From: Schlesneria sp. DSM 10557
GTDB taxonomy: Bacteria; Planctomycetota; Planctomycetia; Planctomycetales; Planctomycetaceae
Direction of reading: 5' to 3'
Length of the DNA stretch: 64,000 bases
NCBI RefSeq assembly: GCF_041860085.1
Contig: NZ_CP124747.1
Span: 5,789,001 to 5,853,000 of the forward strand
This document shows positions 444 to 17,037 of the stretch, one piece after another. Numbering within the stretch: position 1 is the stretch's first letter; the number at the start of each line of letters is the position of its first letter. The notes under the pieces are model-generated. The model was not told the origin of the DNA, did no database searches, and worked only from the letters and a program-made list of their open reading frames with translations. Both the position numbers and the translations under genes were made by a program.

Positions 444-514
444 TACCCGATAGTGTAACGGTAGCACAACAGATTTTGGTTCTGTTTGTCCAGGTTCGAA
501 TCCTGGTCGGGTAA
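444..514 (+). tRNA. tRNA-Gln (anticodon UUG)
   Basis: A full cloverleaf can be drawn. The acceptor stem is TACCCGA (444-450) with TCGGGTA (507-513), and the discriminator is A514. The anticodon stem is ACAGA/TCTGT (469-473/481-485) around a 7-base loop carrying TTG at 476-478. The T stem is CCAGG/CCTGG with loop TTCGAAT. No CCA is encoded. The 3' part from 471 is also the left attachment core of an integrated element, so the tRNA gene has been kept intact by the insertion. Confidence 0.95.
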
Positions 515-527
515 TCTCTTTAAGTTG
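471..527 (+). repeat. attL: 57-bp direct repeat overlapping the tRNA-Gln 3' end
   Basis: Bases 471-527 are identical to 16981-17037. The repeat starts in the anticodon stem of tRNA-Gln, covers the T arm and acceptor 3' strand, and runs 13 bases past the gene. The copies differ immediately outside (470 C versus 16980 A; 528 T versus 17038 C). This is the classical footprint of tyrosine-integrase insertion into a tRNA gene. Confidence 0.95.
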
Positions 528-687
528 TTCCCATAGAACAGCTTACATTCACGCCCAGTTTTTTATTAACTGCCTCGCCTCACTTGGTGCTACGCGGGTG
601 CTACCTTGCATCCGACGAAAAGCGATTGCCTTTCGCTCTCCAGACGTCAACTTTGCTTGAAGTAATCATCACGTTTAAGGGCAAATC

Positions 688-1575
688 GTGATTGACGTGA
701 CACTCACAACGGTTGGAACCACACTCAGTTACGTCGCAAAGGCAGCGCGGTGGTGTGGTGGCAAGGGTCTTGTTTGGAAGGCCCGCGATCGAATGACGAT
801 CAGCATACTTCAGAACTTGCATATCGGCGTTGTGCATGAATGCAGGGCGCTGACTTCCGCGTTGCAGCCTGCCCCAGGTGAAGTCGCTTCGAGAATTGCT
901 TCTGGGCTGTGCGATCGAATGAACGATATCATGCGCACTATCTTGGAGCTGCAGCCGAATCAGTTGCATTGTTGCATTAAACTGATTGCACCGAAAGAAA
1001 ATCCAACTGAAGATGATCAGTTAGGCACATGGGCTCGATCCCAGCCGTTTGATGACCGGCCGGTCCACCAAGAACCGTCGAAGGATTTCCATTCAATTGA
1101 CAAAAACACCGTGTGGTGTGCATTCTATGGAAGAAATGATGGAGTGACGAACTGGACTCGCGTAAACTGTTTCTCGTGCAATGATTTGCTTAAACAGGCG
1201 CCACTCTTCAAGTGTGATCGCGATAATTGGCAACAATTTTACCAATCCGTCATGGTGTTCCCAATCAACTTTGCGATTGGTTCCGACAATCGCAGCTTTT
1301 CGCGACTTGGTTTTCTGGCGTTTGATTCTCCGATTCAGAATGCGTTTCGCGGTATGCCGAACATCTTTGAGTATCGCGACTCTATAAGTGAGTATCGAGA
1401 TCGATTGTTAGATTCAACCTGCTTCCACTTCGGCGCGATATGTGCCGACCTTTTGGGAGCGGCTATTGCGGATGCGTTCAGGTCAACAACGCAGCCAGCC
1501 GTTTTGCCAGTTGTTAAACCGACTCCGAACCACAGAAGCCATCACCCTAATCCCAAGAAGCGAAGGCGACGCTAA
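688..1575 (+). CDS. Hypothetical protein at the left end of the element (possible cargo)
   Basis: 295 residues starting from GTG, with AAGGG six bases upstream. I do not recognise the family. The segment around residues 180-265 (FPINFAIG, LGFLAFDSP, then a conserved-looking EYRD repeat and FHFGAICADLL) has the look of an alpha/beta sensor-type domain such as GAF, but that is only an impression. The C-terminus is a basic tail ending KKRRRR, suggesting nucleic-acid contact. It is transcribed away from the attachment site, alone and opposite to the following operon, which is where satellites and prophages often carry accessory or defence genes. No signal peptide or membrane segment is seen. Confidence 0.7.
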   Translation: MIDVTLTTVGTTLSYVAKAARWCGGKGLVWKARDRMTISILQNLHIGVVHECRALTSALQPAPGEVASRIASGLCDRMNDIMRTILELQPNQLHCCIKLIAPKENPTEDDQLGTWARSQPFDDRPVHQEPSKDFHSIDKNTVWCAFYGRNDGVTNWTRVNCFSCNDLLKQAPLFKCDRDNWQQFYQSVMVFPINFAIGSDNRSFSRLGFLAFDSPIQNAFRGMPNIFEYRDSISEYRDRLLDSTCFHFGAICADLLGAAIADAFRSTTQPAVLPVVKPTPNHRSHHPNPKKRRRR

Positions 1576-1882
1576 ATACATGGAACTCACTGAACGTCCC
1601 AGATCGAATCAATTGACTGATTACAGCCAAAGCGGGGTTTCGCTTGTTTCTGTTTCAGCCCCTATGGCACTCTTTGTATCTGGCCAGAAGGTTATGCAAC
1701 AAAAACTGACAGATCAAAAACGCCAAGCCAGTAGTGCAAAAAAGGCAAATCGATCGAAATGAGTTTCATGAAGTTGCATTGAGCGCGAGCGGAGCCCGCC
1801 TAGACTCCGTTCGCGCCCAATGCCGAATTGCTGCGGATTTTCAAAGATCAGTTACGACTAGCGGACTCTGCCGGTCAGGTCG
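1576..1882. other. Intergenic, convergent between cargo gene and leftward operon
   Basis: About 300 bases without a convincing gene. The overlapping open frames here lack ribosome-binding sites and read as low-complexity serine/arginine protein. No clear terminator hairpin with a T-run was found. Confidence 0.5.
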
Positions 1883-2032
1883 TCATTCGTCGTTAATCTG
1901 CTCAACCACCCAAACGGCACCCTCTTCGTCTTCCTGCTCAAGTTTCTCCAGTGCTGCGAGGATGAGTTTCAAGACTCGATGTCGTTCCACCTGCTGAGCC
2001 AGAGATGCGTCAACGTCTTCTGCGGTCTTCAT
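1883..2032 (-). CDS. Small acidic protein, last gene of leftward operon
   Basis: A 49-residue frame reading MKTAEDVDASLAQQVERHR and ending WVVEQINDE. It is supported by a strong GGAGG Shine-Dalgarno seven bases before the ATG and by a 4-base ATGA overlap with the stop of the preceding gene (2029-2433). It is rich in glutamate and probably helical. There is no recognised domain. The arrangement indicates translational coupling within the operon. Confidence 0.7.
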   Translation of the reverse strand: MKTAEDVDASLAQQVERHRVLKLILAALEKLEQEDEEGAVWVVEQINDE

Positions 2033-2433
2033 GCTACCGCCTCCTCTGCTGCTGAGATGTTGACCAACCGTGCGATCAGATCTAAGTCTCGGTCGTCGGT
2101 GACAGATTCAATGGCTTCCGCTACCCTGCTCATCAGGTCCGCCTGCACTCGAAGCCACTCAGCCACCTGTGCCGGTAATGGCTTCCGCAGGTCGAACTCA
2201 CCATCGTGAGCCCACCACTGATAAACGATGGTCGCTGCCTCCTCATCCGTCGACGCTCTCCAGCCGTCCTCGTCGCAGTCCTCGCCATCGTCGGCCAGAA
2301 CGAATGATGTAAACCCCCGGTGTTCCAGCAGCATGTCTTGCGTCACGCTGTCTGCCGCGTTGTCGATCAGGTCGGTGATCGGTCTCGAGATTTTGTCGAG
2401 ACGGTAGGCCAGTTTGTTTTCAGATGGCTTCAT
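2029..2433 (-). CDS. Hypothetical acidic protein, leftward operon
   Basis: 134 residues starting MKPSENKLAYRLDK, with AGGAG seven bases before the ATG. The start overlaps the previous gene's stop by four bases. It is acidic (DDGEDCDEDGW around residue 50) with a tryptophan-rich middle (YQWWAHDGEFDL) and a helical C-terminal third. I do not recognise a family. Tight packing with its neighbours suggests a shared role with the other small proteins of this operon. Confidence 0.75.
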   Translation of the reverse strand: MKPSENKLAYRLDKISRPITDLIDNAADSVTQDMLLEHRGFTSFVLADDGEDCDEDGWRASTDEEAATIVYQWWAHDGEFDLRKPLPAQVAEWLRVQADLMSRVAEAIESVTDDRDLDLIARLVNISAAEEAVA

Positions 2434-2857: not shown

Positions 2858-3328
2858 CTACTGCCGCGAGAACTCGATCCTTCTGCGACGATCCCGGTGG
2901 AATGACTCGTCCCTGATATTCGCGTCGTCACCCGGTCGAACGATCTCAACGAGCTTGCAGGACTTGTGGTCTCTGCCGGAGAGAATGTCGACGCGGCAAC
3001 CAAGCGCCTTTGCCAGTGATTGTGCGGCACGTTCTGCTCGCTTTTCGCAGTCGTACTCGATGCCGTCGACGAACCACACTTGGCGATTGTGGTACTTGTC
3101 CAGAAACTCAATTGCCTTCTCGGTCAGTACCAGGACAGCTTTGTCGTCACCGAACTGACCGAGTTTCCGAACGGCTTTGACATGCTTGGGACATGCCAGG
3201 CACTTCCTCACGAGGTGTGCTGAGTTTGGCTGGTCTGGTTCCTCCGTCAGCTCACAGTTGCAGGCATAACATCGGGGGAACGCGGCCAGCATTTCACGGC
3301 GCAGTCGTTGCTTTATTCGCTGCCTCAT
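2858..3328 (-). CDS. Hypothetical protein with two CxxC knuckles, leftward operon
   Basis: 156 residues. The N-terminal third carries CYAC (about residues 20-23) and CLAC (about 43-46), a spacing suited to one structural zinc site. The rest is mixed alpha/beta with the segment VWFVDGIEYDCEKRAERA, and the tail is very basic (RDRRRRIEF). The start overlaps the preceding stop (ATGA). Small zinc-ribbon proteins are frequent in phages, where they often bind nucleic acid. The exact function is unknown. Confidence 0.75.
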   Translation of the reverse strand: MRQRIKQRLRREMLAAFPRCYACNCELTEEPDQPNSAHLVRKCLACPKHVKAVRKLGQFGDDKAVLVLTEKAIEFLDKYHNRQVWFVDGIEYDCEKRAERAAQSLAKALGCRVDILSGRDHKSCKLVEIVRPGDDANIRDESFHRDRRRRIEFSRQ

Positions 3329-3933
3329 GGGGTCACCGTCCCTTCGTCGGCCAATTTGGGATCGGTCACGGAATCAGCACGCCGCAGGCTGATCGTCCAT
3401 TGGCGGGGGATGCGAGCCAGGTCATAGCGGGTTTTGTTGGCCCGGTTTGCAGCATCTTCAGCCACCCGGAACGTCAGGCCCGCTTGAACGCACGGAGGGA
3501 AGTCCGCAGGGTCTGCGGGTCGATCCTGAGGGGAAATGCCAGACAGGATCACCACTGATCCTCGATTGGTCAGAACGGCCCACCGTCGCTTTCTCCTGCT
3601 GATGTCGCTCTGGTTGTAGAGCAGCACGTATTGCCCGGCCAGTTCCATACCGAGTTCATCGGTGACGCTGGGGGGAACGTCGCGGGAATTCGCAGGTTCC
3701 CAGCTCACGTTCTGAATCGTGACAGTGCCGCAGGTCGGGGAGTCCTTCCAGTATGACGGCCGCTTGGCTTTCATCCGCTCGATCGCTTGTTCCGCCTGCT
3801 CCACCGTAATCGGGGTTTGATGGACGATCGTCGCAGCATCATTGATCGTCGTCGTGGTTGGCTCGTCGTCCAAGATGTGGCCCGTAAAGTCCGGACGTTC
3901 CGCAGCGTGAAAAACGGGTGTAAGCGTCGCCAT
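3325..3933 (-). CDS. Hypothetical protein, first gene of leftward operon
   Basis: 202 residues from the ATG at 3933, chosen over an upstream in-frame start at 4011 because AAGGGAG lies about ten bases before it and the upstream extension reads as arginine/serine filler. No domain is recognised. The N-terminal 50 residues are threonine-rich and probably flexible. The C-terminal half (VLLYNQSDISRRKRRWAVL) looks like a compact beta-rich domain. It is the promoter-proximal gene behind an unusual structured leader at 4075-4175. Confidence 0.7.
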   Translation of the reverse strand: MATLTPVFHAAERPDFTGHILDDEPTTTTINDAATIVHQTPITVEQAEQAIERMKAKRPSYWKDSPTCGTVTIQNVSWEPANSRDVPPSVTDELGMELAGQYVLLYNQSDISRRKRRWAVLTNRGSVVILSGISPQDRPADPADFPPCVQAGLTFRVAEDAANRANKTRYDLARIPRQWTISLRRADSVTDPKLADEGTVTP

Positions 3934-4074
3934 GAATGAGACTCCCTTGTGAGAAAGGCCAGGCACCGAGCGCAACGGTAGCGCTGATGCTGTGCTGGTA
4001 CGTGAAAACACCGTGTCTAGAAACCGAGTGTCGACCGCTGAGCGTTGAGTCGCTGGGTCATGATGAAACGAAAA

Positions 4075-4282: not shown

Positions 4283-4600
4283 ATGGCCAGAAACGAACTA
4301 CCTCCAGAATCATTTGAGCAGCTTGCCGCCGAGCTTTTAGAGGCATCGAACACGCTGTCAGGAATCGCGTCATTCATGCGGGAAAGTGGAATGCCTCGTG
4401 CGTTGGTCCATGCCGCAACAACTCAGAATCACCACGTTCCGAGCATCTTGGAATCCGTCGCGAAAATGAATGTCGATGTCCGGGTTCAAGTCCGTGCGTA
4501 TCTCGCGGGGGTCCCATCAAGCGCAGAGATTCACGTGCAGCAGAATGCTAACGCGAAGAAATCGGCCGCACGGAAGGCCAGGAAGAAACCTGGGGCGTGA
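4283..4600 (+). CDS. Small hypothetical protein with basic tail
   Basis: 105 residues beginning MARNELPPESFEQLAAEL. The first 75 residues are predicted helical. The tail is lysine/arginine/alanine-rich (KKSAARKARKKPGA), typical of small nucleic-acid-binding proteins. No clear Shine-Dalgarno precedes the ATG. It is the first of three rightward genes and faces the leftward operon across a region of inverted repeats, so it could be a regulator, but no HTH is visible. Confidence 0.65.
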   Translation: MARNELPPESFEQLAAELLEASNTLSGIASFMRESGMPRALVHAATTQNHHVPSILESVAKMNVDVRVQVRAYLAGVPSSAEIHVQQNANAKKSAARKARKKPGA

Positions 4601-4711
4601 AAGGTCTGGCTGCTGCGACGCAGGGATCCTGTTGAAGACACAGTTTAAGGTGGGATGGTATAAGTGATACCAAAGAGAAATTGACCGCGATTCTACATCA
4701 ATGGACAAGTC

Positions 4712-5080
4712 ATGACGTCAGCATGTGGACGATTTCGTAGTTGTGTCTCAGAGATGTGCTCTCAGATCGCTTCAGCTCACTTCGGTCGCATTTTACGTGA
4801 CCGTCGTCTAGTAGATGTGCTAACAGATTTCCAGAAGTGTAAAAGCAACCTTGAAGTCGGGATCGCAGCAGCAACGCAGATGTGCGAGGCCGACTTCACG
4901 GTCGACGATTTCGTGATCGGAGCCTCTATTGTCATGTTTTTTGAAGATGCAACCGGCGACTACATGGATGATTCGGACAAACAATCATGTGTCGAAGCAT
5001 TCAAGGAGCTTGTCGTTTCTTCCGCAACCAATGACGCCTACCGGCTTTGGGCGAAACAGTGGTTCCCGACCATCCATTAA
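4712..5080 (+). CDS. Hypothetical protein upstream of a Panacea-domain gene
   Basis: 122 residues, or about 108 if the in-frame ATG at 4754 is used; neither start has a convincing ribosome-binding site. It is mostly helical, with three cysteines in the N-terminal half. The middle segment (FTVDDFVIGASIVMFFEDATGDYMDDSDK) is acidic. No family is recognised. It lies 78 bases before the Panacea gene on the same strand. Panacea antitoxins are usually encoded beside their toxin, so this is the candidate partner, but I see no known toxin motif. Confidence 0.55.
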   Translation: MTSACGRFRSCVSEMCSQIASAHFGRILRDRRLVDVLTDFQKCKSNLEVGIAAATQMCEADFTVDDFVIGASIVMFFEDATGDYMDDSDKQSCVEAFKELVVSSATNDAYRLWAKQWFPTIH

Positions 5081-5158
5081 AGTGTTTGACTGGACTAGCG
5101 ATTGCCGGTACGATTCCGGTTTGGATATTGCGAGTGTCCGCACAAAAAGGAATACCGC

Positions 5159-5698
5159 ATGAACCGCAAAATGATTGATCGCGCGAAGCAAATAATCGTT
5201 GAAATCATTCGCCAGTCTGGAGGCGAATTTCACAATAAGACCAATCTCTACAAGGCTTTTTGGATTGCTCACCTTTCATTTGCAGATGCAACTGGTGGCA
5301 TATTGTCCACATGGCCAATTGTAAAAATGCCGAATGGCCCCGGCATTGATCGGCACCAAATCCTTCTCGGAGAGCTTTTAACGGACGGCATTATCGAAAT
5401 AGAACAGAAGGAAGGCCAATACGAAGCATTCATTTTTCGACTTTCTGACAAAACGTCGATCCCTCAAATGGAAGACGAAGAGCTAGATGCTATCAAAGAC
5501 GGAATTGCTGGCGTTCGAGGCAAGTCGGCCAAACAAGTGAGCTTCGAATCACATGAGAACTCGATCTCATGGAATCAGGCAGACATAGGCGAGGAAATGA
5601 ATCTTTATCTGGATATCATCCCGCCTGCGGATCGTGAGACACTCAAACGCGAGTCAGCGAAATTCGCGTCTTTTGCAAGCGAAGTTGTTGGAATATAA
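5159..5698 (+). CDS. Panacea (DUF4065/SocA-like) domain protein, possible antitoxin
   Basis: 179 residues from ATG 5159, preceded by AAGGAA at good spacing; the longer frame from 5102 has no ribosome-binding site. The pattern follows the Panacea domain: an early helix with NKTNLYKAFWIAHL, then PIVKMPNGPGIDRHQ (the family's 'yGP' turn), a winged segment LLTDGIIEIEQKEG, and after it ELDAIKDGIAGVRGKSAKQVS followed by SHENSISW. Panacea domains are known as versatile antitoxin domains and as phage-associated regulators. Here it is inside an integrated element, downstream of an unknown small gene. Confidence 0.65.
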   Translation: MNRKMIDRAKQIIVEIIRQSGGEFHNKTNLYKAFWIAHLSFADATGGILSTWPIVKMPNGPGIDRHQILLGELLTDGIIEIEQKEGQYEAFIFRLSDKTSIPQMEDEELDAIKDGIAGVRGKSAKQVSFESHENSISWNQADIGEEMNLYLDIIPPADRETLKRESAKFASFASEVVGI

Positions 5699-6011
5699 CG
5701 GTCAAAAACGCGAAGAAATCCGCTGCCAAGAGGCCCCCGAAACGACCTGTGACGTGATCGCCGGTAAATCGTCGCTAACATTGGCAGCAATTTCTGAGCA
5801 GCCCGCAGGCCCCAAATTTGTCACCTTTTAGTGACAAAATCCGCTCATCTTTTTCGAGTGTATAGGCGATTCCGCACTCACCTTTTAGGGGGAGTGACTT
5901 TTCAAAGCGGGAGCCGGTTACCGTTTTGCCGCCGACAGCAGCCGGACGGTTGAGAAACTTGTCAGTCGTCGGGAGTCAGGTCGATGTAACGCTGGTGTAA
6001 CGGCAGTTCCG
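5699..6011. other. Intergenic region rich in short inverted repeats
   Basis: No gene is seen. The region contains the perfect inverted repeat at 5817-5838, a weaker CACTCACC/GGGGGAGTG pair at about 5876-5898, and the GTTAC-AAAA-GTAAC repeat at its border (6011-6024). It lies between convergently read genes, so a regulatory or replication role for these sites is possible. Confidence 0.5.
5817..5838. promoter_or_regulatory. Inverted repeat TTTGTCAC-N6-GTGACAAA
   Basis: Perfect 8-bp arms around CTTTTA. The same half-site and spacing recur at 7782-7803 (perfect, 9-bp arms) and, with mismatches in one arm, at 6265-6286, all within the element. Recurrence at gene boundaries suggests an operator for an element-encoded regulator. 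Confidence 0.5.
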
Positions 6012-6275
6012 TTACAAAAGTAACGCTCGTGGGCGCAGGTTCCGAAACTGGAATTCCCGCCACGGGGTTTTTGATAGTTCCATCAACAACCTGATCAGCA
6101 GGTCCTGCTGGGATCGATCACCTTCTGCTGGTCTTGGCTTCACTTCTGAAACAACGGTGTTCATCACCATTGTTTCCCTCAGTTTGCACACAAACGAATG
6201 GTGGACACCACATCGGGTAGCGATCTCGCGTGCAGACCACTGTGACCAGCCAGGGTCACGCAGAAATGTAACCAA
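6012..6275 (-). pseudogene. ParB-type HTH domain, probably a 5'-truncated remnant
   Basis: 87 residues from a TTG at 6275. The segment DPGWSQWSAREIATRCGV followed by HHSFVCKLR matches the helix-turn-helix that sits in the C-terminal third of phage and plasmid ParB-like proteins. The usual preceding ParB/Srx nuclease-fold domain is absent. The in-frame sequence upstream is open for only about 19 more codons, and it runs through a terminator hairpin and an operator-like repeat. There is no ribosome-binding site. I infer a decayed gene fragment. A short functional DNA-binding protein started at TTG is less likely. Confidence 0.55.
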
Positions 6276-6286
6276 AAGGTGACAAA
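6265..6286. promoter_or_regulatory. Imperfect copy of the GGTGACAAA inverted repeat
   Basis: The right arm GGTGACAAA (6278-6286) is identical to the arm of the site at 7782-7803, with the same AAAA spacer. The left arm (AATGTAACC) has three differences. It overlaps the first codon of the HTH fragment. Confidence 0.4.
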
Positions 6287-6431: not shown

Positions 6432-6632
6432 TCATTGAGAACGCTCAGCAAGTGCCTCCAGCAGCAGCTTTGCGGTCTCTCTCTGCCGATCTGATCCCGT
6501 CAACGCCGCCTCCATTGCCGCAGACTGCATATCGGCAAGTTGCTTCTCTGTCACTGGCCAGCGATTACGCAGTGCCTGAAGGAACAGCCGCAGGTCACTG
6601 CGCTTGACGTTGCAGTGGTTACGGTCACTCAT
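6432..6632 (-). CDS. Small helical phage-type protein
   Basis: 66 residues from ATG 6632 (MSDRNHCNVKRSDLRLFL), overlapping the end of the preceding gene by eight bases. It is a mainly helical protein ending in RQRETAKLLLEALAERSQ. It accompanies the terminase-small-subunit-like gene, an association I recall from other planctomycete elements, so a joint role in DNA handling is plausible. No catalytic motif is visible. Confidence 0.65.
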   Translation of the reverse strand: MSDRNHCNVKRSDLRLFLQALRNRWPVTEKQLADMQSAAMEAALTGSDRQRETAKLLLEALAERSQ

Positions 6633-7059
6633 CGCGATCTGAGCCTTCCACCAGATTGATCCTCGCAAGCATGAGCGCCTTGTGCTGAGCCAGGTTCTCG
6701 GGTGTGACTGGTCCCAGCTCGGCTTGAAGTCGCTTCAGTTCGTCGGTCTGAGTGAGTGGGGTCTCACCAGCATGAACGATCGACGGGTCGTCGGCTTCAT
6801 CGGCAGTCGGCTTCGTGGCGACATAGGTCAGAATGAGTTTCGCCGCATTGAGATTGCCAGACTTCGCAGACGCAACCAGCGATTGCACGATCTCTGTCAT
6901 GTCATCCTCACTGATGGCGCTCAGCAGTGCAGACCGCAGCTTCGACACTTTCCCCGCGAACGGATTGCCGCGTGAGAATTTGTTGCCGATACCGAACCGG
7001 CCGCTGTTGGGATCTCGACCGAAAACACCGTTTGGTGACGGCGGAACTGCATCATCCAT
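6625..7059 (-). CDS. DUF5681-like / terminase-small-subunit-like protein
   Basis: 144 residues from ATG 7059, preferred to the ATG at 7074 because GGAG precedes it at workable distance. The N-terminus has the family's glycine/asparagine-rich motif SGRFGIGNKFSRGNPFAGKV. It is followed by a helical LRSALLSAISEDDMTEIV region and NAAKLILTYVATKP. Members of this family are found in phages and integrated elements and are commonly described as DUF5681 or small-terminase-like. If correct it would be the DNA-recognition half of packaging, without a large terminase in the element. A satellite would use such a gene to redirect a helper phage's packaging motor. Confidence 0.6.
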   Translation of the reverse strand: MDDAVPPSPNGVFGRDPNSGRFGIGNKFSRGNPFAGKVSKLRSALLSAISEDDMTEIVQSLVASAKSGNLNAAKLILTYVATKPTADEADDPSIVHAGETPLTQTDELKRLQAELGPVTPENLAQHKALMLARINLVEGSDRDE

Positions 7060-7162
7060 GAATTTTTTCTCCATGTAGTATTACCGCTGCAAAAAGTTTC
7101 TGACGGACACGAAGCGCGAGCAGGACCACCCGCTTGCCGTGTTTCGGTCCAGCAGGGACCCG

Positions 7163-7351
7163 CTACTCATCACGGGGGATCAGCTCACGTTGCACAGACT
7201 TGAATCGATACCCGCAGGTCCGGCATCTGTGCCACCGAATAGGCCGTCTGGTTGATGTGACGGGACAGTCCGCCCCTCGGCATCGCTTTCGCGGACACTG
7301 AATGACGTCGTACACGATCGGTCTCGGGTCGACTCGTGGGTCTCGTGGCAT
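7163..7351 (-). CDS. Zinc-ribbon protein
   Basis: 62 residues from ATG 7351, with GGAG six bases upstream. The core CPRKRCRGADCPVTSTRR followed by HRCRTCGYRFKSVQ has two cysteine pairs and the typical C-x2-C-G-x2-F knuckle of phage zinc ribbons. The gene overlaps the 3' part of the 7180-7587 frame by about 170 bases in another frame. The ribbon pattern makes this the stronger of the two in the overlap. The likely role is nucleic-acid binding or transcription control. Confidence 0.7.
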   Translation of the reverse strand: MPRDPRVDPRPIVYDVIQCPRKRCRGADCPVTSTRRPIRWHRCRTCGYRFKSVQRELIPRDE

Positions 7352-7587
7352 TCTGGCTCCAGGTCGTGAGCACCTCGCATACGTCGGGTGATCCGCTCGC
7401 CGTGCGACCACTCGCGCCTGATCCGCGCACACTCCGCTTCGATCTCTGCTGGTGTCGGCAAGTAGATCGGCTTCCGGCGCCGTGTCAGTGGTTCCGGGTT
7501 GGTGATCACCGCGTCAACTTCCGCTGTGGCCCCGCAGGCCGTACTGGTCCCAGTGGCATTTCCCGCGTCGTCTGCCGAGCTCCACAT
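7180..7587 (-). CDS. Small phage-type protein, long overlap with neighbours
   Basis: 135 residues from ATG 7587 (GGGAG eight bases upstream). The segment RRRKPIYLPTPAEIEAECA followed by RIRREWSHGERITRRM resembles a short helical protein common in planctomycete elements, which normally ends soon after this arginine-rich stretch. Here the frame continues for some 60 more residues, reading through the zinc-ribbon gene out of frame and with low-quality composition. Either the natural stop has been lost or the extra tail is real. The start also overlaps the 3' end of the upstream zinc-ribbon gene. Confidence 0.55.
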   Translation of the reverse strand: MWSSADDAGNATGTSTACGATAEVDAVITNPEPLTRRRKPIYLPTPAEIEAECARIRREWSHGERITRRMRGAHDLEPECHETHESTRDRSCTTSFSVRESDAEGRTVPSHQPDGLFGGTDAGPAGIDSSLCNVS

Positions 7588-7727: not shown

Positions 7728-7781
7728 GGTCGTCTCACTCCCTCGAAAAATGTCGTGATCCGCTCCAGCCGACCGACGGAA

Positions 7782-7803
7782 TTTGTCACCAAAAGGTGAC
7801 AAA
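7782..7803. promoter_or_regulatory. Perfect inverted repeat TTTGTCACC-AAAA-GGTGACAAA
   Basis: Nine-base arms around AAAA, located between the terminator of the large replication operon and the first gene of the next group (start 7727). It is the strongest of three related sites in the element and probably an operator. Confidence 0.55.
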
Positions 7804-7839
7804 AAGCGGGGTCAGCCAAGACTCAGAAACTGACCCCGC
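7801..7839 (-). terminator. Rho-independent terminator of the replication operon
   Basis: GCGGGGTCAG (7806-7815) pairs perfectly with CTGACCCCGC (7830-7839). On the minus strand a TTTTT run follows. It lies about 20 bases past the stop of the gene ending at 7861. Confidence 0.85.
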
Positions 7840-9351: not shown

Positions 9352-10047
9352 GATCAGTTCAGGGTTGCAGCACCACTCGTCTTCAATGGCTTTCCGCTCG
9401 ACCTTCTGGTCCTCGAACAGCTGATCAAGTTTCAACCGCCGCTGGTCCAATGTCTGGATCTCCGCGTCGAGACGGACAGCCCGTTCTGCAATCGTCGAAT
9501 CATGCCCGCTCGACAGTCGGTTACGGCAGTCGTCGAGAGCATTCTTCGCGTCTTTGAGTAGCCCTGAGACGGTCTCATGATCCCGCAGTCGTGCCTCACA
9601 TCGCCGCTCCAGTTCATCGAGCTTGCTCAACGCCTCGGGATGGCGACAAGACTTGATCAGCTCGGCCCGCGCCGCCTTACCGTTGGCTACCCGCTTCTGT
9701 GCCTCGGAGACAGCACACTGATTGTCATAAATCTGACTGTTGAACTGTTCAATCAGCTGATCCCGCTGCTTCACCAGATCGCCAATATCCTTCCCTCGCT
9801 GGGTGATCTCGGCTTGTGCGCCATCTATCAAGTCCATCTTTCGCCGCAGGTCCCGTCGTCGCTCGATCGACAGTTTGAACTCCTCCAGATCCGCGACAGT
9901 CAAGCCGCTTTGTTCCAGGTCCTCGTAACTCACATCCTCCGCACGGACGTAGGCCCTGATAACCCGCTGTCGCAGCAGTTCTCGCTGTTCCTTTCGTGCT
10001 GCCTCCTCTTGGAGTAGCCTGTCTCGAAGTGTCGGTCCGTCAGTCAT
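9349..10047 (-). CDS. Coiled-coil protein
   Basis: 232 residues from ATG 10047, preceded by AAAGGTGAG. Almost the entire chain is charged helix. Long heptad-like stretches run from about residue 60 to 225 (for example ERRRDLRRKMDLIDGAQAEI and SKLDELERRCEARLRDH). There is no membrane segment or signal. Coiled-coil proteins of this size in phages and satellites serve as scaffolds, tape-measure-like or DNA-organising proteins; which one applies here is not visible. The 3' end is unusual because the frame stays open past the TGA. Confidence 0.75.
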   Translation of the reverse strand: MTDGPTLRDRLLQEEAARKEQRELLRQRVIRAYVRAEDVSYEDLEQSGLTVADLEEFKLSIERRRDLRRKMDLIDGAQAEITQRGKDIGDLVKQRDQLIEQFNSQIYDNQCAVSEAQKRVANGKAARAELIKSCRHPEALSKLDELERRCEARLRDHETVSGLLKDAKNALDDCRNRLSSGHDSTIAERAVRLDAEIQTLDQRRLKLDQLFEDQKVERKAIEDEWCCNPELI

Positions 10048-10051
10048 GTGC

Positions 10052-10936
10052 TCACCTTTCCTCAAGTGAAGCGGCTAAAATGCGAACGTCCGAAGTTGGT
10101 ACGGTCGCTGGTTTGCTGAGAGTTACAGGGTCGTGCCCCGTGTCGCTGGCCCAAACATCGAGCAGTCGCTTTGGCGGTTCCGACTTGGAAATCGCGCTCA
10201 GTGGCAAGTGCTTCATCGTTTGAATTTCGTCGCTGACTGCTTCGAGATACGCCCACGGGTCGCCATAGCCGAAATACGACCATGCCATCAATTGAACTAA
10301 CGGCAGCCGAAGTTTCGTTGCCTCGATCAGTCGGCCAGAAACATGCAACGCCAGCCGAATGAATTGCCAGTCGTGATGAACCCATTTGGGATGATCTGCA
10401 TATTCTGGAAGTTCATCTGGATCGACTTCGGTATCTTCCTTGAACACCTGAAATTTCGTCTCTTGTCGAATGTGGTTGAAACTCGTGCACCAGTGCGGGA
10501 AGCACCCAACGCAGTGCGCCAGCTCGTGCCCCGCGACTTGCAACAGCCGTGAGTACCAGTCTGTATAGTCCTCGTCCGCTGCTGGGGGATCGTCTCGCAA
10601 ACAGAACGCAGGTCCGATGCCCCGCCACTGTGCCCCGATCTGTGGACGCAATGTGTCGGCCAGGTCCTGAGAAGTGATCCCGCAGAGGCTATCGTGCCAT
10701 CGCAGGCCGATCTCAGTCTCCCCAAGGATGTACAACCTACGGCACTTCGACTGCCGCAGTTCGTGCCTGATCATCGGCTTCAGGGTGTCTATCAGCTTCT
10801 GCCGTTCCCGTGCCCACGAGAAACGCCACGGTCGGACGATCTTTGGCGCAGGTCGCTCATACGCCTTGATCCATCGCCGTTCCCCCGTGCTTTCGTCGAG
10901 CCACAAGATTTTTTGGTAGGGGTTGTTTCTGTTCAA
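10052..10936 (-). CDS. Zincin-like protein with HExxH motif
   Basis: 294 residues from a TTG at 10936, with GAGAGG before it. The sequence GHELAHCVGCFPHWC places HELAH at residues 137-141, the metal-binding helix of metalloproteases. No conserved third ligand of a named subfamily can be fixed by eye; several later histidines and acidic residues (YADHPKWVHHDW) could provide it. No signal peptide is seen, so it would act in the cytoplasm. It overlaps no neighbour but is five bases from the coiled-coil gene, so they are probably cotranscribed. It could be a protease acting on element, host or helper proteins. An inactive structural fold is also possible. Confidence 0.65.
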   Translation of the reverse strand: MNRNNPYQKILWLDESTGERRWIKAYERPAPKIVRPWRFSWARERQKLIDTLKPMIRHELRQSKCRRLYILGETEIGLRWHDSLCGITSQDLADTLRPQIGAQWRGIGPAFCLRDDPPAADEDYTDWYSRLLQVAGHELAHCVGCFPHWCTSFNHIRQETKFQVFKEDTEVDPDELPEYADHPKWVHHDWQFIRLALHVSGRLIEATKLRLPLVQLMAWSYFGYGDPWAYLEAVSDEIQTMKHLPLSAISKSEPPKRLLDVWASDTGHDPVTLSKPATVPTSDVRILAASLEER

Positions 10937-11038
10937 AGTAGCCTCTCTCGGTTCCGCTTGGGATGGGGGTGAAATTTTGGGTGGCGCGCGGGATCGTGTG
11001 CAGTAACAAGGTTTGTCGACCTGACAGGAACCTATCCT

Positions 11039-11239
11039 TCATGGCCCCCTCCCTTCATGCCGCAGGATCACCTCACCATCACGCCTGATCTCGATCGATT
11101 GCTTCGACATTGTTCGGTCTGGTCCGATCCTCACCTCATTGTGATTCTCGATCTGTAGCCGTGGTGCAGTCGGCCCGATCGGCACCTGATCGCAGCAGCC
11201 GAGACTCAGCAGTGCCGCCGCCCATCTGTGTGATCTCAT
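11039..11239 (-). CDS. Small hypothetical protein, possible lipoprotein
   Basis: 66 residues from ATG 11239, following GGAAGGG. The N-terminus MRSHRWAAALLSLGCCDQVP has a short basic start, a hydrophobic stretch and a cysteine, like a lysis-type lipoprotein, though the residues before the cysteine are not a perfect lipobox. The rest (EIRRDGEVILRHEG) is beta-like. The start overlaps the previous stop by four bases. Confidence 0.55.
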   Translation of the reverse strand: MRSHRWAAALLSLGCCDQVPIGPTAPRLQIENHNEVRIGPDRTMSKQSIEIRRDGEVILRHEGRGP

Positions 11240-11430
11240 CGCCTGCCCTTCCAATTTCGATTCGGCTTTCCTGATCGCTTCCGGCCTGCTGCCGCCGCGA
11301 TGTCAATCAGGGGTCGTGTCTGCCCGCTCTCGTCGGTCCAGTTGAGCCACCGACACCGCTGGCAGTTCCATCTGCCGGACTGGGGCTTGCTCGATGTCTC
11401 GCCGCAGCCTGTGCATTTTGGTGGGGTCAT
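11236..11430 (-). CDS. Small zinc-ribbon protein
   Basis: 64 residues from ATG 11430 with AAGGGG upstream. CTGC at residues 6-9 and CQRC near 23-26 form a one-zinc ribbon, with W residues around the second knuckle (GRWNCQRCRWLNW). The C-terminal tail is basic. It overlaps both neighbours by four bases. It is presumably nucleic-acid binding, like the other ribbons of the element. Confidence 0.65.
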   Translation of the reverse strand: MTPPKCTGCGETSSKPQSGRWNCQRCRWLNWTDESGQTRPLIDIAAAAGRKRSGKPNRNWKGRR

Positions 11431-11783
11431 GATTTCCCCTTCGGCTTGAATATCCACTCGAACCCGGCGATCGAATTGCCTGGGGAATGTCGATCGAGCA
11501 GGTAATTGCGATACTCCTCCCCAACCGGACCGCGATCTAAGATCGTTCGGTTCTTGGCTTCAGCTTCCGAGAACTTCAGCCGACCGTCTGCGGCCAAGTA
11601 CAGCGTCACTGAGAACTTTGCGGGGTCGTCCTCCCAGTTCGTCGCGAACGACTCAAGCCATTCATCAAAACTGATTCCGGTTCCCAGTTGCTCATGTAAC
11701 CGTCTCGCATCGACGACGGTGATCGTGCTGCCGTCGACTCGGAGTTGTTCTGGTTCAAGTTGGACGTGTGTCTTTTCTGTCAT
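11427..11783 (-). CDS. Hypothetical protein downstream of the helicase
   Basis: 118 residues starting MTEKTHVQLEPEQLRVDG, with AGGAAAG before the ATG. It has the segment VDARRLHEQLGTGISFDEWL, then a beta-rich middle and an aromatic basic end (GFEWIFKPKGKS). No family is recognised. It lies 78 bases after the DnaB-like gene and overlaps the next zinc-ribbon gene. Confidence 0.65.
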   Translation of the reverse strand: MTEKTHVQLEPEQLRVDGSTITVVDARRLHEQLGTGISFDEWLESFATNWEDDPAKFSVTLYLAADGRLKFSEAEAKNRTILDRGPVGEEYRNYLLDRHSPGNSIAGFEWIFKPKGKS

Positions 11784-11860
11784 GCTTCTTTCCTCGATTT
11801 TGTGGGTAATGTGAATTGCCTGTGCATGTTTTGAGATTCAAGATTCGACGGCTTATTGGC

Positions 11861-13207
11861 TCACCAGACCACCTCCTGTTCCTCTGGCCCCAGCAGTCGC
11901 TGGCGCACTGGATCGATAGTCATCTGAATGACCGCCTGACTGATGCCGCGACTTCGATTTTTCGCGTGGTAGATTCGATACTCGGTCGGGTCGGCGTAGT
12001 TTGGATCTACCTTTGCAGGCCATTGGATGAACAAAATCACGTCAGCATCTTGCTCCAACTGGCCCGAGTCCCGCAGGTCGCTGAGTTGTGGGACCGCAGA
12101 CTGACGGCTTTCGATCGACCGGCTGAGTTGTGCGAGCAGTAACACGACAATCTCATGCTTGGTCGCGACCCGCTTCATCCGGGTTGATACGTCGCTGACC
12201 TGCTCGTACTTGCTGGAGCCAGCGCCCTTCAGTAACTGGGCATAGTCCACTGCAACGATCTTTACGCCGTGTCGCCTGACCGCCGAAGCAATCGCACGTT
12301 CTGCGACATCCACCGATCCGCAGGACTCAGCCACCAGTAACGGCGCCCGTCCCGCGAAGTGCTGTTGGGCTTCGTATTTCAACCGCTCCAGGTCCGCTGA
12401 CCAACCATTCACATCGGTCGGCATGATTCTCTGAACGGTCCGCTTTGCCAGGCTGATCGCCGACATCTCTTCGCTGACGATCATAGCCGGGACACCGTGC
12501 ATCGTCGCTTGCTCAACCCATTGCAACGCGGACAACGATTTTCCCTGACCCGGTCGCCCACCAATGATGATCAGCTCGCCAGGTGCCACCCCGCCTATCG
12601 CACGGTCAATTGCAGGAATCCCCACTCGCATTGTTTCCGCTTCGCCGCGTGCCAATCCGTCGACGTACTCGTGAACGACATCAGACATCAACTTTTCACG
12701 TCGACATCCAACTTGCGGCAGGTCCTCAGCCAGTCGGAGCAAGCTCGACCGCACGCCCTCGATACTGGCATGGGACTCCGTTAGTTTCAGCAGATCCTCG
12801 AGCCCACGCTGTAGCCTCCGCAGAGAAGCTTTCGAGTTGATGATCGAGATCCACTCTGCAACGTGCTCGGCCCCGAACGACTCGGCCTGATCCAATAATT
12901 CGAGCAGGTAGTTCACGCCGTCCGGCAACTCGCCCAATTTCCCGGTTTCCGACAGCCGATCGCCGACGGTCAGCACGTCAACTGGTCGCTGTTCGTCTGC
13001 CAACTCAATCATCGCGGCCAGTGTGGCCCGATGAGCATCACCCACCAGTGCCGACAGATCGAACTCGGTGATTGTGTCCCGCAGTTCATCGAACCGGACA
13101 AGCAACGTGCCCACCAGCAGTTTTTCAGCGTAGTCCGCACGAATGAGCCCCCCTTCGAACGGGATCTGCCATTTCTGGGCGCCGCGTCGTGTACGCGCCT
13201 CGCTCAT
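11861..13207 (-). CDS. DnaB-type replicative helicase
   Basis: 448 residues, the normal length of the family. An N-terminal helical domain (residues about 20-130) is followed by the RecA-like motor with Walker A GGRPGQGKS (about 216-224), Walker B VAVDYAQLL (about 318-326) and the helicase signature LSDLRDSGQLEQDADVILFI near residue 390. It unwinds DNA ahead of a replisome. GGAGG precedes the ATG, and the start overlaps the stop of the replication-protein gene (ATGA), so the two are translationally coupled. Having its own helicase and initiator suggests that the element replicates after excision. Confidence 0.95.
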   Translation of the reverse strand: MSEARTRRGAQKWQIPFEGGLIRADYAEKLLVGTLLVRFDELRDTITEFDLSALVGDAHRATLAAMIELADEQRPVDVLTVGDRLSETGKLGELPDGVNYLLELLDQAESFGAEHVAEWISIINSKASLRRLQRGLEDLLKLTESHASIEGVRSSLLRLAEDLPQVGCRREKLMSDVVHEYVDGLARGEAETMRVGIPAIDRAIGGVAPGELIIIGGRPGQGKSLSALQWVEQATMHGVPAMIVSEEMSAISLAKRTVQRIMPTDVNGWSADLERLKYEAQQHFAGRAPLLVAESCGSVDVAERAIASAVRRHGVKIVAVDYAQLLKGAGSSKYEQVSDVSTRMKRVATKHEIVVLLLAQLSRSIESRQSAVPQLSDLRDSGQLEQDADVILFIQWPAKVDPNYADPTEYRIYHAKNRSRGISQAVIQMTIDPVRQRLLGPEEQEVVW

Positions 13208-13965
13208 TGGATGATACCTCCGAGTGAATTGGTTCGGATCTCGGAGATTGGCTGAATACGTGGGGTGGTGACGTGCCCTGTGCGATGTGGTGTCAGTCCG
13301 TCGCCAGCGGAATCCGTGGTCGACCAGTTGCGGACCGCTGCCCTCCAGTCCTTCATCGCGTTTCGACCAACCTTCCAGCCGTTCGACTCGTAGTGATCAA
13401 CGAACTTCTGCGGATTGATCGTCGACGAGATCTCACGGCAGTAGGCCGACACTTCAGTGGCAGTAGGCTTAACGAACCTCACGACCTTCGGTTTCAGTTC
13501 TATTTCCCCATTCCCCTTTGGGTGGCGTGCGTCTTCTTGATGCACACTCTTACTATCCATTCCATTAGACTCCATTCCGTCGCGAGGAGTCGTCGAATGC
13601 TCGACGATAACTCGACGAGTGCTCGACGAATTTTGACCATCAGGACGAGGGTATTTCTTGGTGGGTCGGTCTATCTTTTGGTGCCGATCCCAGCCTGTAA
13701 CATGCCAATACCTCTCGTTTTCAGCCTCAAACTCAATGATCAGGCCGTTCCGCTTTAGTTCGTCGACCATGCCTTGGATCTCTTCATCGGCGATCGCATC
13801 ACCTGGGAAAACCTCCATCTTCAATCGCTTAATGCTCGCGGGATGAACTCCGCCGTCGTCGCAGAAGCACCACAAGCCGACGAACAGCAGTCGAGCACTC
13901 GTCGAGCACTCGACGATTTGTTCCGACGTGAAGAATTCCGGCTTGATCGTGCGAATGCGTGCCAT
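13204..13965 (-). CDS. Phage-type replication protein (DnaD/replisome-organiser-like)
   Basis: 253 residues from ATG 13965, chosen over a longer frame because GGAGG lies just upstream and the protein then begins MARIRTIKPEFFTSEQI, the typical start of this family. That start is followed by LLFVGLWCFCDDGGVHPAS, then a winged-helix-like region with ENERYWHVTGWDRHQKIDRP. The middle is a serine/threonine linker, and the C-terminal part (FVDHYESNGWKVGRNAMKDW) is the domain seen in phage replisome organisers that load DnaB. The next gene is exactly such a helicase. Confidence 0.85.
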   Translation of the reverse strand: MARIRTIKPEFFTSEQIVECSTSARLLFVGLWCFCDDGGVHPASIKRLKMEVFPGDAIADEEIQGMVDELKRNGLIIEFEAENERYWHVTGWDRHQKIDRPTKKYPRPDGQNSSSTRRVIVEHSTTPRDGMESNGMDSKSVHQEDARHPKGNGEIELKPKVVRFVKPTATEVSAYCREISSTINPQKFVDHYESNGWKVGRNAMKDWRAAVRNWSTTDSAGDGLTPHRTGHVTTPRIQPISEIRTNSLGGIIQ

Positions 13966-14234
13966 CAATACACCTCCCGATCGATGCCGTATTGACGCAA
14001 AACTTTCGGCAGGATCGCCCCCAGCAGGACAGGCCCGCAAGCTGGCGAATCGTCTGAGACGCGACAACCGGACGCATCAAGTCCATGTCGCCGCCGCAGT
14101 CTGATGGACGCATCTCGCAGGATCGCCCGCACTCCGGGTGTGAGCCCGATAGCCGAGTCAACGACAACACGAACCGGCGCCGTCGGAATTGTTCGACATG
14201 GGATCTTGCTAACTAGCCGTGTCGCTCGTACCAT
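13965..14234 (-). CDS. Small basic hypothetical protein ahead of the replication gene
   Basis: 89 residues from ATG 14234 (AAGGAA upstream); the stop TGA shares one base with the next ATG. It is basic and arginine-rich (RAILRDASIRLRRRHGLDAS), with a cysteine pair in SGCRVSDDSPACGP. A DNA-binding role is plausible from charge and position. No family is recognised. Confidence 0.6.
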   Translation of the reverse strand: MVRATRLVSKIPCRTIPTAPVRVVVDSAIGLTPGVRAILRDASIRLRRRHGLDASGCRVSDDSPACGPVLLGAILPKVLRQYGIDREVY

Positions 14235-14293: not shown

Positions 14294-14482
14294 TTACCGT
14301 GCCTTCAAAAATGCGTCGTGCAGCACCCGCCGCTGCTGTGGTGTCAGCTCCGAGTGCTTCCACCCGTGAGCCATCAGCCAGCCGCTGAAGGTCGATTCAT
14401 CGATCGCCCGCAGGCTGTTATTGCGATCGGTGTTCGGCTTGCTTTTGGGGATGTCGGCCACCCCGTAAATCTTGTTTGTCAT
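14294..14482 (-). CDS. Small hypothetical protein
   Basis: 62 residues starting MTNKIYGVADIPKSKPNTD, preceded by AAGGG seven bases away. The C-terminal half (SGWLMAHGWKHSELTPQQRR) may be a short helical hairpin. It is 21 bases from the AlpA-like gene and probably in the same transcript. No assigned function. Confidence 0.65.
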   Translation of the reverse strand: MTNKIYGVADIPKSKPNTDRNNSLRAIDESTFSGWLMAHGWKHSELTPQQRRVLHDAFLKAR

Positions 14483-14810: not shown

Positions 14811-14839
14811 TGTGTTGTCACGAACTTGTCCGGTCTATG

Positions 14840-15577
14840 TCACGGCTTCCAATACCACGCAAAGCGGGCTGCCTCTCGACGCATGGTTTCGGGATCCTTC
14901 TGAATCTGATGCCGGTCGCAAAATTCTCTTATACATTGGATATCAGTTGCAAAAGACGCGCGATTCCTTTTGAGAAACTTGATTAACTCCAAAGTGTCTG
15001 GATTCTCCGGGAGTTTATTTTCCTCTTTTCTGGTCTTGTCACGGCCTCGGGATGTCTTTGTGATGGAATTTCGCTCGATGTCCATTGTTGCTGCCAGTCG
15101 GAGCCAGTCGGGAGAATTCATTTCATCGACGATGACTCGGAACTTCTTTGTTAGCGGAACCCGATTTGTGTCAATGAATCTGCTCACGTAATTGTGCCAC
15201 GCCACGACGTCCTTGCTGGAGTGCGATGAATCGTCAAACCCCATTGCAGGGTCAAAAATTGTCTCCCAACATGACGCAATCAGCATGGCCGCGCAGCCGT
15301 GCGCAGTCGCCGCTGATAACTGTAGCGAAAGGTCAGTCTTCCACGGGGATATCGTAAAGACGCATGGCTCCTGTGAGTCCAACAGGATCCGGTCTTCCCA
15401 AGGGTGCAGCCAAATTGCTCCGACCGTCTCCCGTAAGATGTTGCTGGCTTGTACTGGCCCCCAAAGTAAGAGGCTGTGAATGTTATCATTCATCTGAGCT
15501 TCCACTGGGATTCGACGGATAAGCGTTGAGAGGCAAGTGGAAATGTAGTTGAATTCCTCGATCGCCGGTTCAACCAT
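14840..15577 (-). CDS. Hypothetical protein translationally coupled to the integrase
   Basis: 245 residues from ATG 15577, overlapping the integrase stop by eight bases. The N-terminal 130 residues are mixed hydrophobic (QASNILRETVGAIWLHPW, HGCAAMLIASCWETIFDPAM), but not clear membrane helices. The C-terminal part is charged (KTSRGRDKTRKEENKLPE). No domain is recognised. Being encoded in the integrase transcript rather than in the replication operon, it would be expressed in the integrated state. A recombination accessory, an immunity function or cargo are the options. Confidence 0.7.
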   Translation of the reverse strand: MVEPAIEEFNYISTCLSTLIRRIPVEAQMNDNIHSLLLWGPVQASNILRETVGAIWLHPWEDRILLDSQEPCVFTISPWKTDLSLQLSAATAHGCAAMLIASCWETIFDPAMGFDDSSHSSKDVVAWHNYVSRFIDTNRVPLTKKFRVIVDEMNSPDWLRLAATMDIERNSITKTSRGRDKTRKEENKLPENPDTLELIKFLKRNRASFATDIQCIREFCDRHQIQKDPETMRREAARFAWYWKP

Positions 15578-16775
15578 CAGTGTTTTCCGCCTTTCCGGTA
15601 TCTGGCTTCCCTGCTGCAGAAATCGCCGCAGTGGCTTTGGTCATCGCATCCCGAACCCGCTCCAGCATCAAACGAGCGTAAACTTCCGTAGTTGCCGTGT
15701 TCTTGTGGCCGAGCGATTGCCCAATCGTCAGGAGGGACTCGCCCCCCAGCGCCTGCCATGAGCCGAGAGTCCTTCTCAAGTCGTGAATGTGCAGATCAGG
15801 CATCCCCGCTGCGGACGTGATCGCCCTCCATGACTTAGTTACGTCGGTGATATGCCCCGTCTTTGAGCCTGCCACCCGTGCCGGAAAGACGAAGTTCTGC
15901 TCCTCGTTGGATTCGCCTCTGAGTTTCTTGAGAACTTCGACCGCTTCCGGTGTCAATGGGACAACCTGGGGTTCGCCCTGCTTCGTATCTGGGATTCGCC
16001 ACGTTTTCGCTATCAAGTCGACCGCATCCCATGTCATCGCCAGCACGTTTGATTTTCTGGCACCCGTCCAAAGCATCAGTTTGAACGCGGACGCGAGCAG
16101 TTGATTATCTGCGGTCTCAAGTGATGCCAAAAAGGGAGGGAGTTCATCTGGTTGCAGGAATCGATCCCTGCTCTTCTCTGCGAACCGTTTCACCCCCGCT
16201 GTGGGGTTCGCTCGGTTCTTGAATTCGCCGATATCTCTGGCGACTCCGTACATCTTCGAAAGCAATGACAGCATTCGATTTGCGGCTATCTTGCCGTTCG
16301 TCTTGCCGATCTTCGCGTGCAATGACTGGCAATCACTGAATTGAACAGAACCGAGTTTACGATGCTTCCACGGTTCTAAGTACCGTTTCCACAACCCTTT
16401 GTCCTCGGAAATGCTTCGTGCCTTCTTATGAGCTTCCGCGTGGTCCTCCAGGTATCTCTGCCACAAGTCGCCGAGTGTCAATTCCCCCCGGATCTTCCGC
16501 TTCGCCTCGGCGGGGTCATCACCGTCTGCGATTCGAGCCAACAGCTTGTTCGCCTTGTCGCGAGCAGCGTCGACTGTCACTTCCGGGAACTTCCCAAGAT
16601 TGTGCCGTTCCGGCCTGCCGTTGACCTTTTTGTACAGATAGAACGACTTCGCCCCGGTCGGCATCGTGAGCAGTGCCAACCCGCTGACTTTCGTGTCATA
16701 CGTCCATCGACGGCCCGCAATCAGAGGGGAGAGCTTCTCGATTGCCGCCATTGTGAAGTTGATTTTTTCCGTCAC
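15570..16775 (-). CDS. int: Tyrosine recombinase (integrase)
   Basis: 401 residues from GTG 16775, chosen because the protein then begins VTEKINFTMAAIEKL, a usual start of the arm-binding domain. Order of parts: arm-type DNA-binding domain (about 1-85), SAM-like core-binding domain (100-200), catalytic domain. Catalytic residues visible: Arg in TGARKSN (about 240), His-x-x-Arg in HDLRRT (331, 334), His in LGHKN (357), and Tyr in TTEVYARL (366). It joins the element's attachment site to tRNA-Gln. Its gene lies about 200 bases from the right repeat and reads inward. Confidence 0.97.
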   Translation of the reverse strand: MTEKINFTMAAIEKLSPLIAGRRWTYDTKVSGLALLTMPTGAKSFYLYKKVNGRPERHNLGKFPEVTVDAARDKANKLLARIADGDDPAEAKRKIRGELTLGDLWQRYLEDHAEAHKKARSISEDKGLWKRYLEPWKHRKLGSVQFSDCQSLHAKIGKTNGKIAANRMLSLLSKMYGVARDIGEFKNRANPTAGVKRFAEKSRDRFLQPDELPPFLASLETADNQLLASAFKLMLWTGARKSNVLAMTWDAVDLIAKTWRIPDTKQGEPQVVPLTPEAVEVLKKLRGESNEEQNFVFPARVAGSKTGHITDVTKSWRAITSAAGMPDLHIHDLRRTLGSWQALGGESLLTIGQSLGHKNTATTEVYARLMLERVRDAMTKATAAISAAGKPDTGKAENTDG

Positions 16776-16980
16776 CGTCGCGCCTATTCGGACAAACAGA
16801 AATTTGACCACACAGAGTGGTGCTACCGGTAGAACCAAAACCCGGTGCTACCTCGGTGCTACTTTGCCAATCATCCACCGTCAAAATCAGTTTGTCTACG
16901 TCAATCCAGAAAACGCTACATTTACCGAGAAAATCAACTCCTATCGAGAATCGTCAATTTCCGTCAAAAACCCTGTTTCA

Positions 16981-17037
16981 AGATTTTGGTTCTGTTTGTC
17001 CAGGTTCGAATCCTGGTCGGGTAATCTCTTTAAGTTG
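16981..17037 (+). repeat. attR: second copy of the 57-bp repeat (3' tRNA-Gln fragment)
   Basis: Identical to 471-527. It holds the tRNA-Gln 3' portion from the anticodon stem onward but no acceptor 5' strand or D arm, so it is not a functional tRNA gene. It marks the right end of the element. Confidence 0.95.

Follow-up and report, generated by a model that had tools for sequence, protein, structure and literature searches.

Five tRNA-integrated, satellite-like elements, two of them with a capsid gene, in the chromosome of the planctomycete Schlesneria sp. DSM 10557

A stretch of 64,000 nucleotides (the window) from the chromosome of Schlesneria sp. DSM 10557 (NZ_CP124747.1, positions 5789001-5853000) contains a 16.5-kb element at a tRNA-Gln gene, which a sequence-only reading had described as satellite-like and likened to phage-inducible islands. 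Related islands were sought in the whole chromosome, a single contig of 7,067,087 bp, and four further tRNA-integrated elements were found. The five are labelled E1 to E5, with E1 the element in the window. With moderate confidence, we regard E1-E5 as members of a family of phage satellites, at least five strong in this chromosome, that recombine with one another; in one subgroup the element includes a capsid gene, and the particles in which these elements move are probably supplied from elsewhere. This reading is based on five tRNA-site elements with perfect repeats and integrases, exact tracts in a mosaic arrangement, shared palindromes and low ratios of nonsynonymous to synonymous substitution rates (dN/dS). 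It is further based on the capsid genes of E4 and E5 and the small terminase gene of E5, next to which no large terminase (TerL), portal or tail match was found in the scanned proteins, and on a gene order (integrase, overlapping gene, alpA, replication) resembling that of a known satellite group. Satellite-like remains the best description of E1; a place among the phage-inducible islands and a helper are conjectural.

Each element occupies a different tRNA gene and has a perfect repeat (Table 1). The 57-bp repeats already reported at the tRNA-Gln gene of E1 were confirmed, the tRNA being called by ARAGORN; they lie 16,510 bp apart, and a perfect repeat of this length has a chance probability of about 1e-30 assuming even base use. 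A PF00589 integrase is encoded in all five elements, a different one in each and without DNA match among the integrase genes; its gene is located at the tRNA-distal end in E1 and adjacent to the tRNA gene in E2-E5. The tyrosine integrase, AlpA-type switch protein, initiator and DnaB helicase attributed to E1 were all recovered with family models.

E1 contains 97 open reading frames (ORFs) of at least 60 amino acids (aa), of which eight are of at least 200 aa. Thirty ORFs, including these eight, were scanned against PHROGs and 20 of the 30 against Pfam. This profile search, which the sequence-only reading had proposed as a check, gave no credible match to a capsid, portal, tail or large terminase family in the 30 ORFs, so that the TerL, portal, capsid and tail functions of a complete temperate phage were not found among them. 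Two matches with structural names were set aside as weak: the 238-aa coiled coil matched phrog_788 ‘tail protein’ (E=0.035), and the AlpA-type protein matched phrog_57 ‘terminase small subunit’ (E=0.0043). E1 shows three general features of a satellite, namely attachment repeats with an integrase, an incomplete virion set and its own replication and regulation genes.

Large parts of the elements are common property. The initiator of E1 has a 100% identical second copy at 2.94 Mb, in E2, and the homologous DNA of E1 and E2 extends over 7.3 kb at 99.36%, with the differences confined to the edges of an identical tract of 6,975 bp. E1 and E3 have an identical cargo tract of 1,146 bp and additional matching blocks of 74-98%, and E4 and E5 have 3.3 kb in common at 95%. 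Two genes, for proteins of 131 and 154 aa, are present in all five elements; the former was found in none of the other family genomes (170 searched, own included). In 16 pairwise gene comparisons, in which the 131-aa gene was counted four times, 13 gave a dN/dS of 0.07-0.41 and three were without differences. Judged by these comparisons, E1-E5 are mosaics that exchange modules.

These elements might instead be five immobile remnants of tailed prophages, in each of which the packaging and tail genes were lost. The phage-type replication modules fit such a history, as do the capsid gene kept in E4 and E5, after which come the 131-aa and 154-aa genes common to all five, and the DUF5681-like ORF of E2, which is shorter and rearranged. 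Decay is unlikely, however, given perfect repeats and integrases in five of five elements, similar functions retained and the same ones absent throughout, a dN/dS below 0.5 in every comparison showing differences and the recent exchange of 6,975 bp.

An HK97-type major capsid protein of 453 aa is encoded in E4 and E5, 98% identical between the two; the E5 protein matched PF05065 (4.9e-32) and phrog_10 (6.4e-23) and showed 35.8% identity with Streptomyces phage Dagobah over 68% of its length. E5 also encodes a small terminase of 194 aa (phrog_83 8.4e-6; PF23931 0.0023, below cut-off). In both elements the 131-aa and 154-aa genes come after the capsid gene. The remaining ORFs of at least 200 aa in E4 encode a helicase, an integrase and proteins of 246 and 221 aa; those in E5 encode an integrase, an initiator-like protein and proteins of 237 and 228 aa. 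No TerL, portal or tail family was matched by 20 scanned E2-E5 proteins (PHROGs; for E2 and E3, eight proteins besides those common with E1), and pattern-limited scans of IMG/VR gave no relatives of the 131-aa, E5 capsid or DUF5681-like proteins.

The capsid protein of E4 and E5, the small terminase of E5 and the phage-type replication genes also bear on the idea of an integrative element without a helper, which excises, replicates and reaches other cells through transformation, general transduction or chance packaging. They count against it, as does the absence of any conjugation gene among the family matches of the scanned E1-E5 proteins. On its side are the weak small-terminase call in E1 and the fact that no packaging signal or helper was identified; we consider it decidedly unlikely.

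A 22-bp palindrome, TTTGTCACC-N4-GGTGACAAA, further connects the elements. At up to two mismatches it has nine sites in the 7.07-Mb genome, all nine inside E1-E5, which represent 0.98% of the genome (E1 two, E2 one, E3 three, E4 two and E5 one); the reversed control had no site genome-wide. The nine sites are not independent, since E1 supplied the motif and several copies belong to stretches that the elements have in common. At up to four mismatches in 21 scanned regions, E1, E2 and E5 each gained one site and the DNA outside the elements gained none, and the exact palindrome was absent from IMG/VR in a pattern-limited scan. A GACCCC-type box stands beside several of the sites. The palindrome may be an operator or a packaging site, both being possible; as an intrinsic terminator it was rejected by eye, being without a T-run. 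A hairpin-like stretch follows the palindrome at window positions 6265-6316 and in the counterparts in E2, E3 and E5, its stem varying and its pairing seemingly kept (by eye).

The same chromosome (G000:C1) harbours structural genes resembling those of a gene transfer agent (GTA): a capsid-connector-tail cluster at G000:C1:3817400-3833260 and, 164 kb away, TerL and portal genes at 3994800-3997800 (TerL phrog_979 2.7e-136; portal phrog_2662 7.9e-33). No integrase was seen in the ORF lists of the cluster, which were judged by eye and not by models. Its capsid protein has matches in 29 of the 170 family genomes. Close ones (69-89%, plus the own copy) occur in nine of 15 genus genomes, one of 63% was found in G102, and genus g10 has 12 genomes with a match (11 at 43-54%, one at 24%). 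The TerL is present in 12 of the 170, eight of them in the genus; the close capsid gene is absent or not assembled in six of the 15 genus genomes and TerL in seven. Across 8 genomes, capsid protein, TerL and a host gene give concordant distances (Mantel r ~0.85, p ~0.002 in each of the three pairings), with the caveat that tree shapes differ, G000 and G140 changing position, and that paralogues of the host gene exist. In G144, G146 and G147 the cluster adjoins the same M3-peptidase gene as in this chromosome, a gene not found in the stretches examined of G135, G142 and G145. From these comparisons the cluster is apparently a domesticated, GTA-like set inherited with the host. Relatives of its capsid gene (54-86%) lie on nine IMG/VR contigs, so free phages carrying that gene may exist.

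A similar structural cluster, with a capsid protein about 50% identical, was observed in the g10 genomes G025, G026, G028 and G033 (L368-L375), a portal relative being situated about 5 kb upstream in three of these four. In PMC7947584 a prophage of another planctomycete, Zavarzinella formosa, is mentioned close to GTA terminases.

If the GTA-like cluster were the helper, E1 would be a satellite parasitising a domesticated particle, packaged by the TerL, portal, capsid and tail proteins of its own chromosome. The TerL, portal, connector and tail genes are at hand, the agreement of distances noted above is consistent with this, and the C-terminal domain of the 154-aa protein resembles the last gene of the cluster tail part (49-55% over ~77 aa). 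This DUF6171-like Cys domain, however, occurs also in unrelated contexts, and an IS66-type transposase gene (its type assigned by eye) interrupts the protease gene of the cluster, which speaks against a working helper in this genome. With the capsid protein of the cluster the E5 protein shares only 28-30% identity, to be set against its match to Dagobah, and the palindrome is absent from the cluster; we find this explanation very improbable. Two proposed derivations were unsupported, that of the E4/E5 capsid protein from the GTA-like one by this comparison, and homology of the 131-aa protein with the Ser-rich protein of the cluster by alignment (hhalign probability 0.3%). A wider proposal is quite improbable: the capsid gene would be a module exchanged within the family, present in some members and absent from others, and all members would borrow terminase, portal and tail, the lender being the inherited GTA-like particle and not a phage.

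The distribution of E1 genes in other genomes was examined. Relatives of the initiator occur in 12 of the 170 family genomes, own included, with 54% identity in genus genome G140. The peptidase profile matched in 36 of 397 class genomes (26 of 185 genera), and 15 of 45 listed places were fetched. The coiled-coil profile matched close to the peptidase in 13 of these 15 loci, G391 and G356 being without it; in G279 one ORF matched both profiles and in G285 the coiled-coil match was in two pieces. In G122 the relative gene order is that of E1: an initiator-like gene (by eye) comes first, then DnaB, the peptidase, the coiled coil and a DUF5681-like gene, with two recombinase-like genes (by eye) after them. 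Because the peptidase-coiled coil pair lies upstream of the 131-aa gene, at the position of the capsid gene in E4 and E5, a role in capsid remodelling had been considered; the idea is weakened by its occurrence elsewhere near helicase genes and, in two genomes, near lambda-type portal genes (by eye).

Two 787-aa ORFs adjoining the peptidase gene, L414:7281-9644 (G441) and L417:11011-13374 (G362), are identical over the 95 residues compared; the genomes are given as different genera, and the identity suggests recent transfer. In G077 (L146:8662-11031) a tape-measure-like ORF of 789 aa comes after the peptidase-coiled coil pair (by eye).

Several results weigh against the satellite reading. The initiator type is common in phages (502 phage records), the E1 DnaB has matches at 55 places in 160 loci scanned, and the two genomes with lambda-type portal genes beside the pair, G276 and G288, mean that it is not diagnostic of satellites. 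The peptidase and the DUF5681-like protein had no match in 50,697 phage records. The small-terminase-like protein of the sequence-only reading remains a weak lead, its phrog_38011 match being to a family of unknown function. The Ogr-like zinc finger was not recovered: the 98-aa ORF stays below the Pfam cut-offs both for an NrdR-like zinc ribbon (22.4 bits against 27.2) and for DUF7129 (E=0.038), and its Pfam matches include no Ogr model. The proposed search for empty sites covered 16 loci (14 in relatives, the own locus and one own paralogue; flanks of up to 1.5 kb), located via the neighbouring 319-aa gene. No locus had a tRNA gene, so no empty tRNA-Gln site was found; the joined-flank matches were confined to the region of the 319-aa gene, so the place of E1 insertion is not syntenic at those loci and the outcome is neutral for the satellite reading.

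Under the satellite reading, the anatomy of E1 suggests the following cycle. An incoming or induced helper would trigger the AlpA-type protein and the integrase, and recombination between the 57-bp repeats would excise E1 and restore the tRNA-Gln gene. The initiator would load DnaB, as the known functions of these families imply, and E1 would be copied with the host polymerase. The large terminase and portal of the helper may then package E1 into helper heads and tails, the DUF5681-like protein perhaps redirecting packaging on the strength of a weak match. Members of the E4/E5 subgroup, in keeping with their gene content, would add their own HK97-type capsid and borrow terminase, portal, connector and tail. 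On entry into a new host, the same integrase would act at tRNA-Gln. Excision, helper and packaging of E1 are all inferred.

Table 1. Elements E1-E5 and features of E1 (window positions unless marked G000:C1 or given for an element; lengths in aa are of the encoded protein; E-values follow the model names).
Feature	Position	Strand	Evidence or remark
E1, tRNA-Gln			16,510 bp; repeat 57 bp
E2, tRNA-Leu	G000:C1:2929426		15,685 bp; repeat 58 bp
E3, tRNA-Lys	807858		17,107 bp; repeat 25 bp
E4, tRNA-Arg CCT	2796103		9,917 bp; repeat 45 bp
E5, tRNA-Ala GGC	299793		10,375 bp; repeat 44 bp
tRNA-Gln(TTG), integration site	443..516	+	ARAGORN
Left attachment repeat, 57 bp	471..527	+	overlaps 3' part of tRNA
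Right attachment repeat, 57 bp	16981..17037	+	identical to left
Tyrosine integrase, 422 aa from first possible start	15570..16838	-	PF00589 E=5.6e-24, Arm-DNA-bind_3 4.7e-15, phrog_1 E=1.3e-64
245-aa protein	14840..15577	-	overlap with integrase ORF 8 nucleotides; 0 families (Pfam, PHROGs)
AlpA-type excisionase/regulator, helix-turn-helix (HTH), 80 aa	14504..14746	-	HTH_17 9.6e-12, phrog_66 1e-8
62-aa ORF	14294..14482	-	0 families (Pfam, PHROGs)
Phage-type replication initiator, 253 aa	13204..13965	-	phrog_2149 8.4e-36 (longer ORF 13204-14067 scanned)
DnaB-type replicative helicase, 448 aa	11861..13207	-	PF03796 1.2e-43, phrog_19 2.7e-58
118-aa protein, weak AntA antirepressor match	11427..11783	-	PF08346 0.0037, below cut-off
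73-aa zinc-ribbon-like protein	11236..11457	-	weak match, below cut-off
294-aa HExxH metallopeptidase-like protein	10052..10936	-	HE..H plus later H and R invariant (11 sequences)
238-aa protein, coiled-coil-like by eye	9349..10065	-	usually adjoins peptidase; profile match near peptidase in 13/15 fetched loci
131-aa Cys/Ser-rich protein	8760..9155	-	5 copies, 1/170 family genomes; only E1-E5
154-aa protein, C-terminal DUF6171-like Cys domain	8291..8755	-	PF19668 1.8e-5 (below cut-off), phrog_13558 2.1e-7
145-aa protein	7861..8298	-	0 families (Pfam, PHROGs)
98-aa ORF, NrdR-like zinc ribbon, not Ogr	7506..7802	-	start uncertain; PF22811 1.2e-4, below cut-off
149-aa DUF5681-like protein, possible small terminase (weak)	6625..7074	-	DUF5681 E=0.052, phrog_38011 E=0.014
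87-aa HTH ORF	6012..6275	-	5' end overlapped by palindrome copy; HTH_23 0.0035, below cut-off
198-aa Panacea/SocA-like protein, possible antitoxin	5102..5698	+	PF13274 0.0093 (below cut-off), phrog_1281 1.6e-4
122-aa cargo ORF	4712..5080	+	inside exact 1,146-bp tract common to E1/E3
228-aa protein	3325..4011	-	common to E1, E2, E3
156-aa Cys-rich protein	2858..3328	-	common to E1 and E2
134-aa protein	2029..2433	-	common to E1, E2, E3
6,975-bp tract identical in E1 and E2	7071..14045		G000:C1:2935832-2942806
1,146-bp cargo tract identical in E1 and E3	4596..5741
22-bp palindrome, exact copy	7782..7803	.
22-bp palindrome copy	5817..5838	.	1 mismatch
22-bp palindrome copy	6265..6286	.	3 mismatches

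Eight E1 proteins and one E3 protein had no match in PADLOC. A Fic-domain protein is encoded beside the E2 integrase (G000:C1:2930754-2931380, L017:8755-9381; PADLOC SoFic 1.7e-19).

Searches of one open-access library, judged by listings and the openings of abstracts, yielded no paper on phage satellites in Planctomycetota. By gene content E1 would work like the satellites known as phage-inducible chromosomal islands (PICI), phage-inducible chromosomal minimalist islands (PICMI) and capsid-forming PICI (cf-PICI), any membership in these classes being putative. Phage satellites of the P4 type have their own replication, no virion set and integration at tRNA genes, features also present in E1, but no P4-type gene set was seen among the family matches of the scanned E1 proteins. 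With PICI and PICMI, E1 has in common the small integrated element, the integrase, the AlpA-type regulator, its own replication and the lack of a virion set. The integrase and AlpA-type regulator that characterize PICI are both present, and the only candidate for a packaging-redirecting protein is the weak DUF5681-like match; unlike in these islands, the site is a tRNA-Gln gene. PICMI carry an integrase gene, a gene overlapping it, alpA and a primase (PMC10803314), of which the primase (DUF3987/DUF5906) is mandatory in their model. The early arrangement of E1 is similar, with the 245-aa ORF overlapping the integrase ORF, whereas in place of the primase it has an initiator and DnaB, and no DUF3987/DUF5906 match. 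According to PMC10690885, cf-PICI encode HNH and both terminase subunits together with capsid, protease, portal and connectors; compared with this set, E4 has the capsid only, E5 the capsid and the small terminase, and E1 neither. E4 and E5 nevertheless resemble cf-PICI and the Streptomyces elements Mulch and Flayer in being small, integrative and equipped with a capsid protein of their own. A complete chromosome in which five such elements recombine side by side, two of them capsid-bearing, would let the gain or loss of satellite capsid genes be followed.

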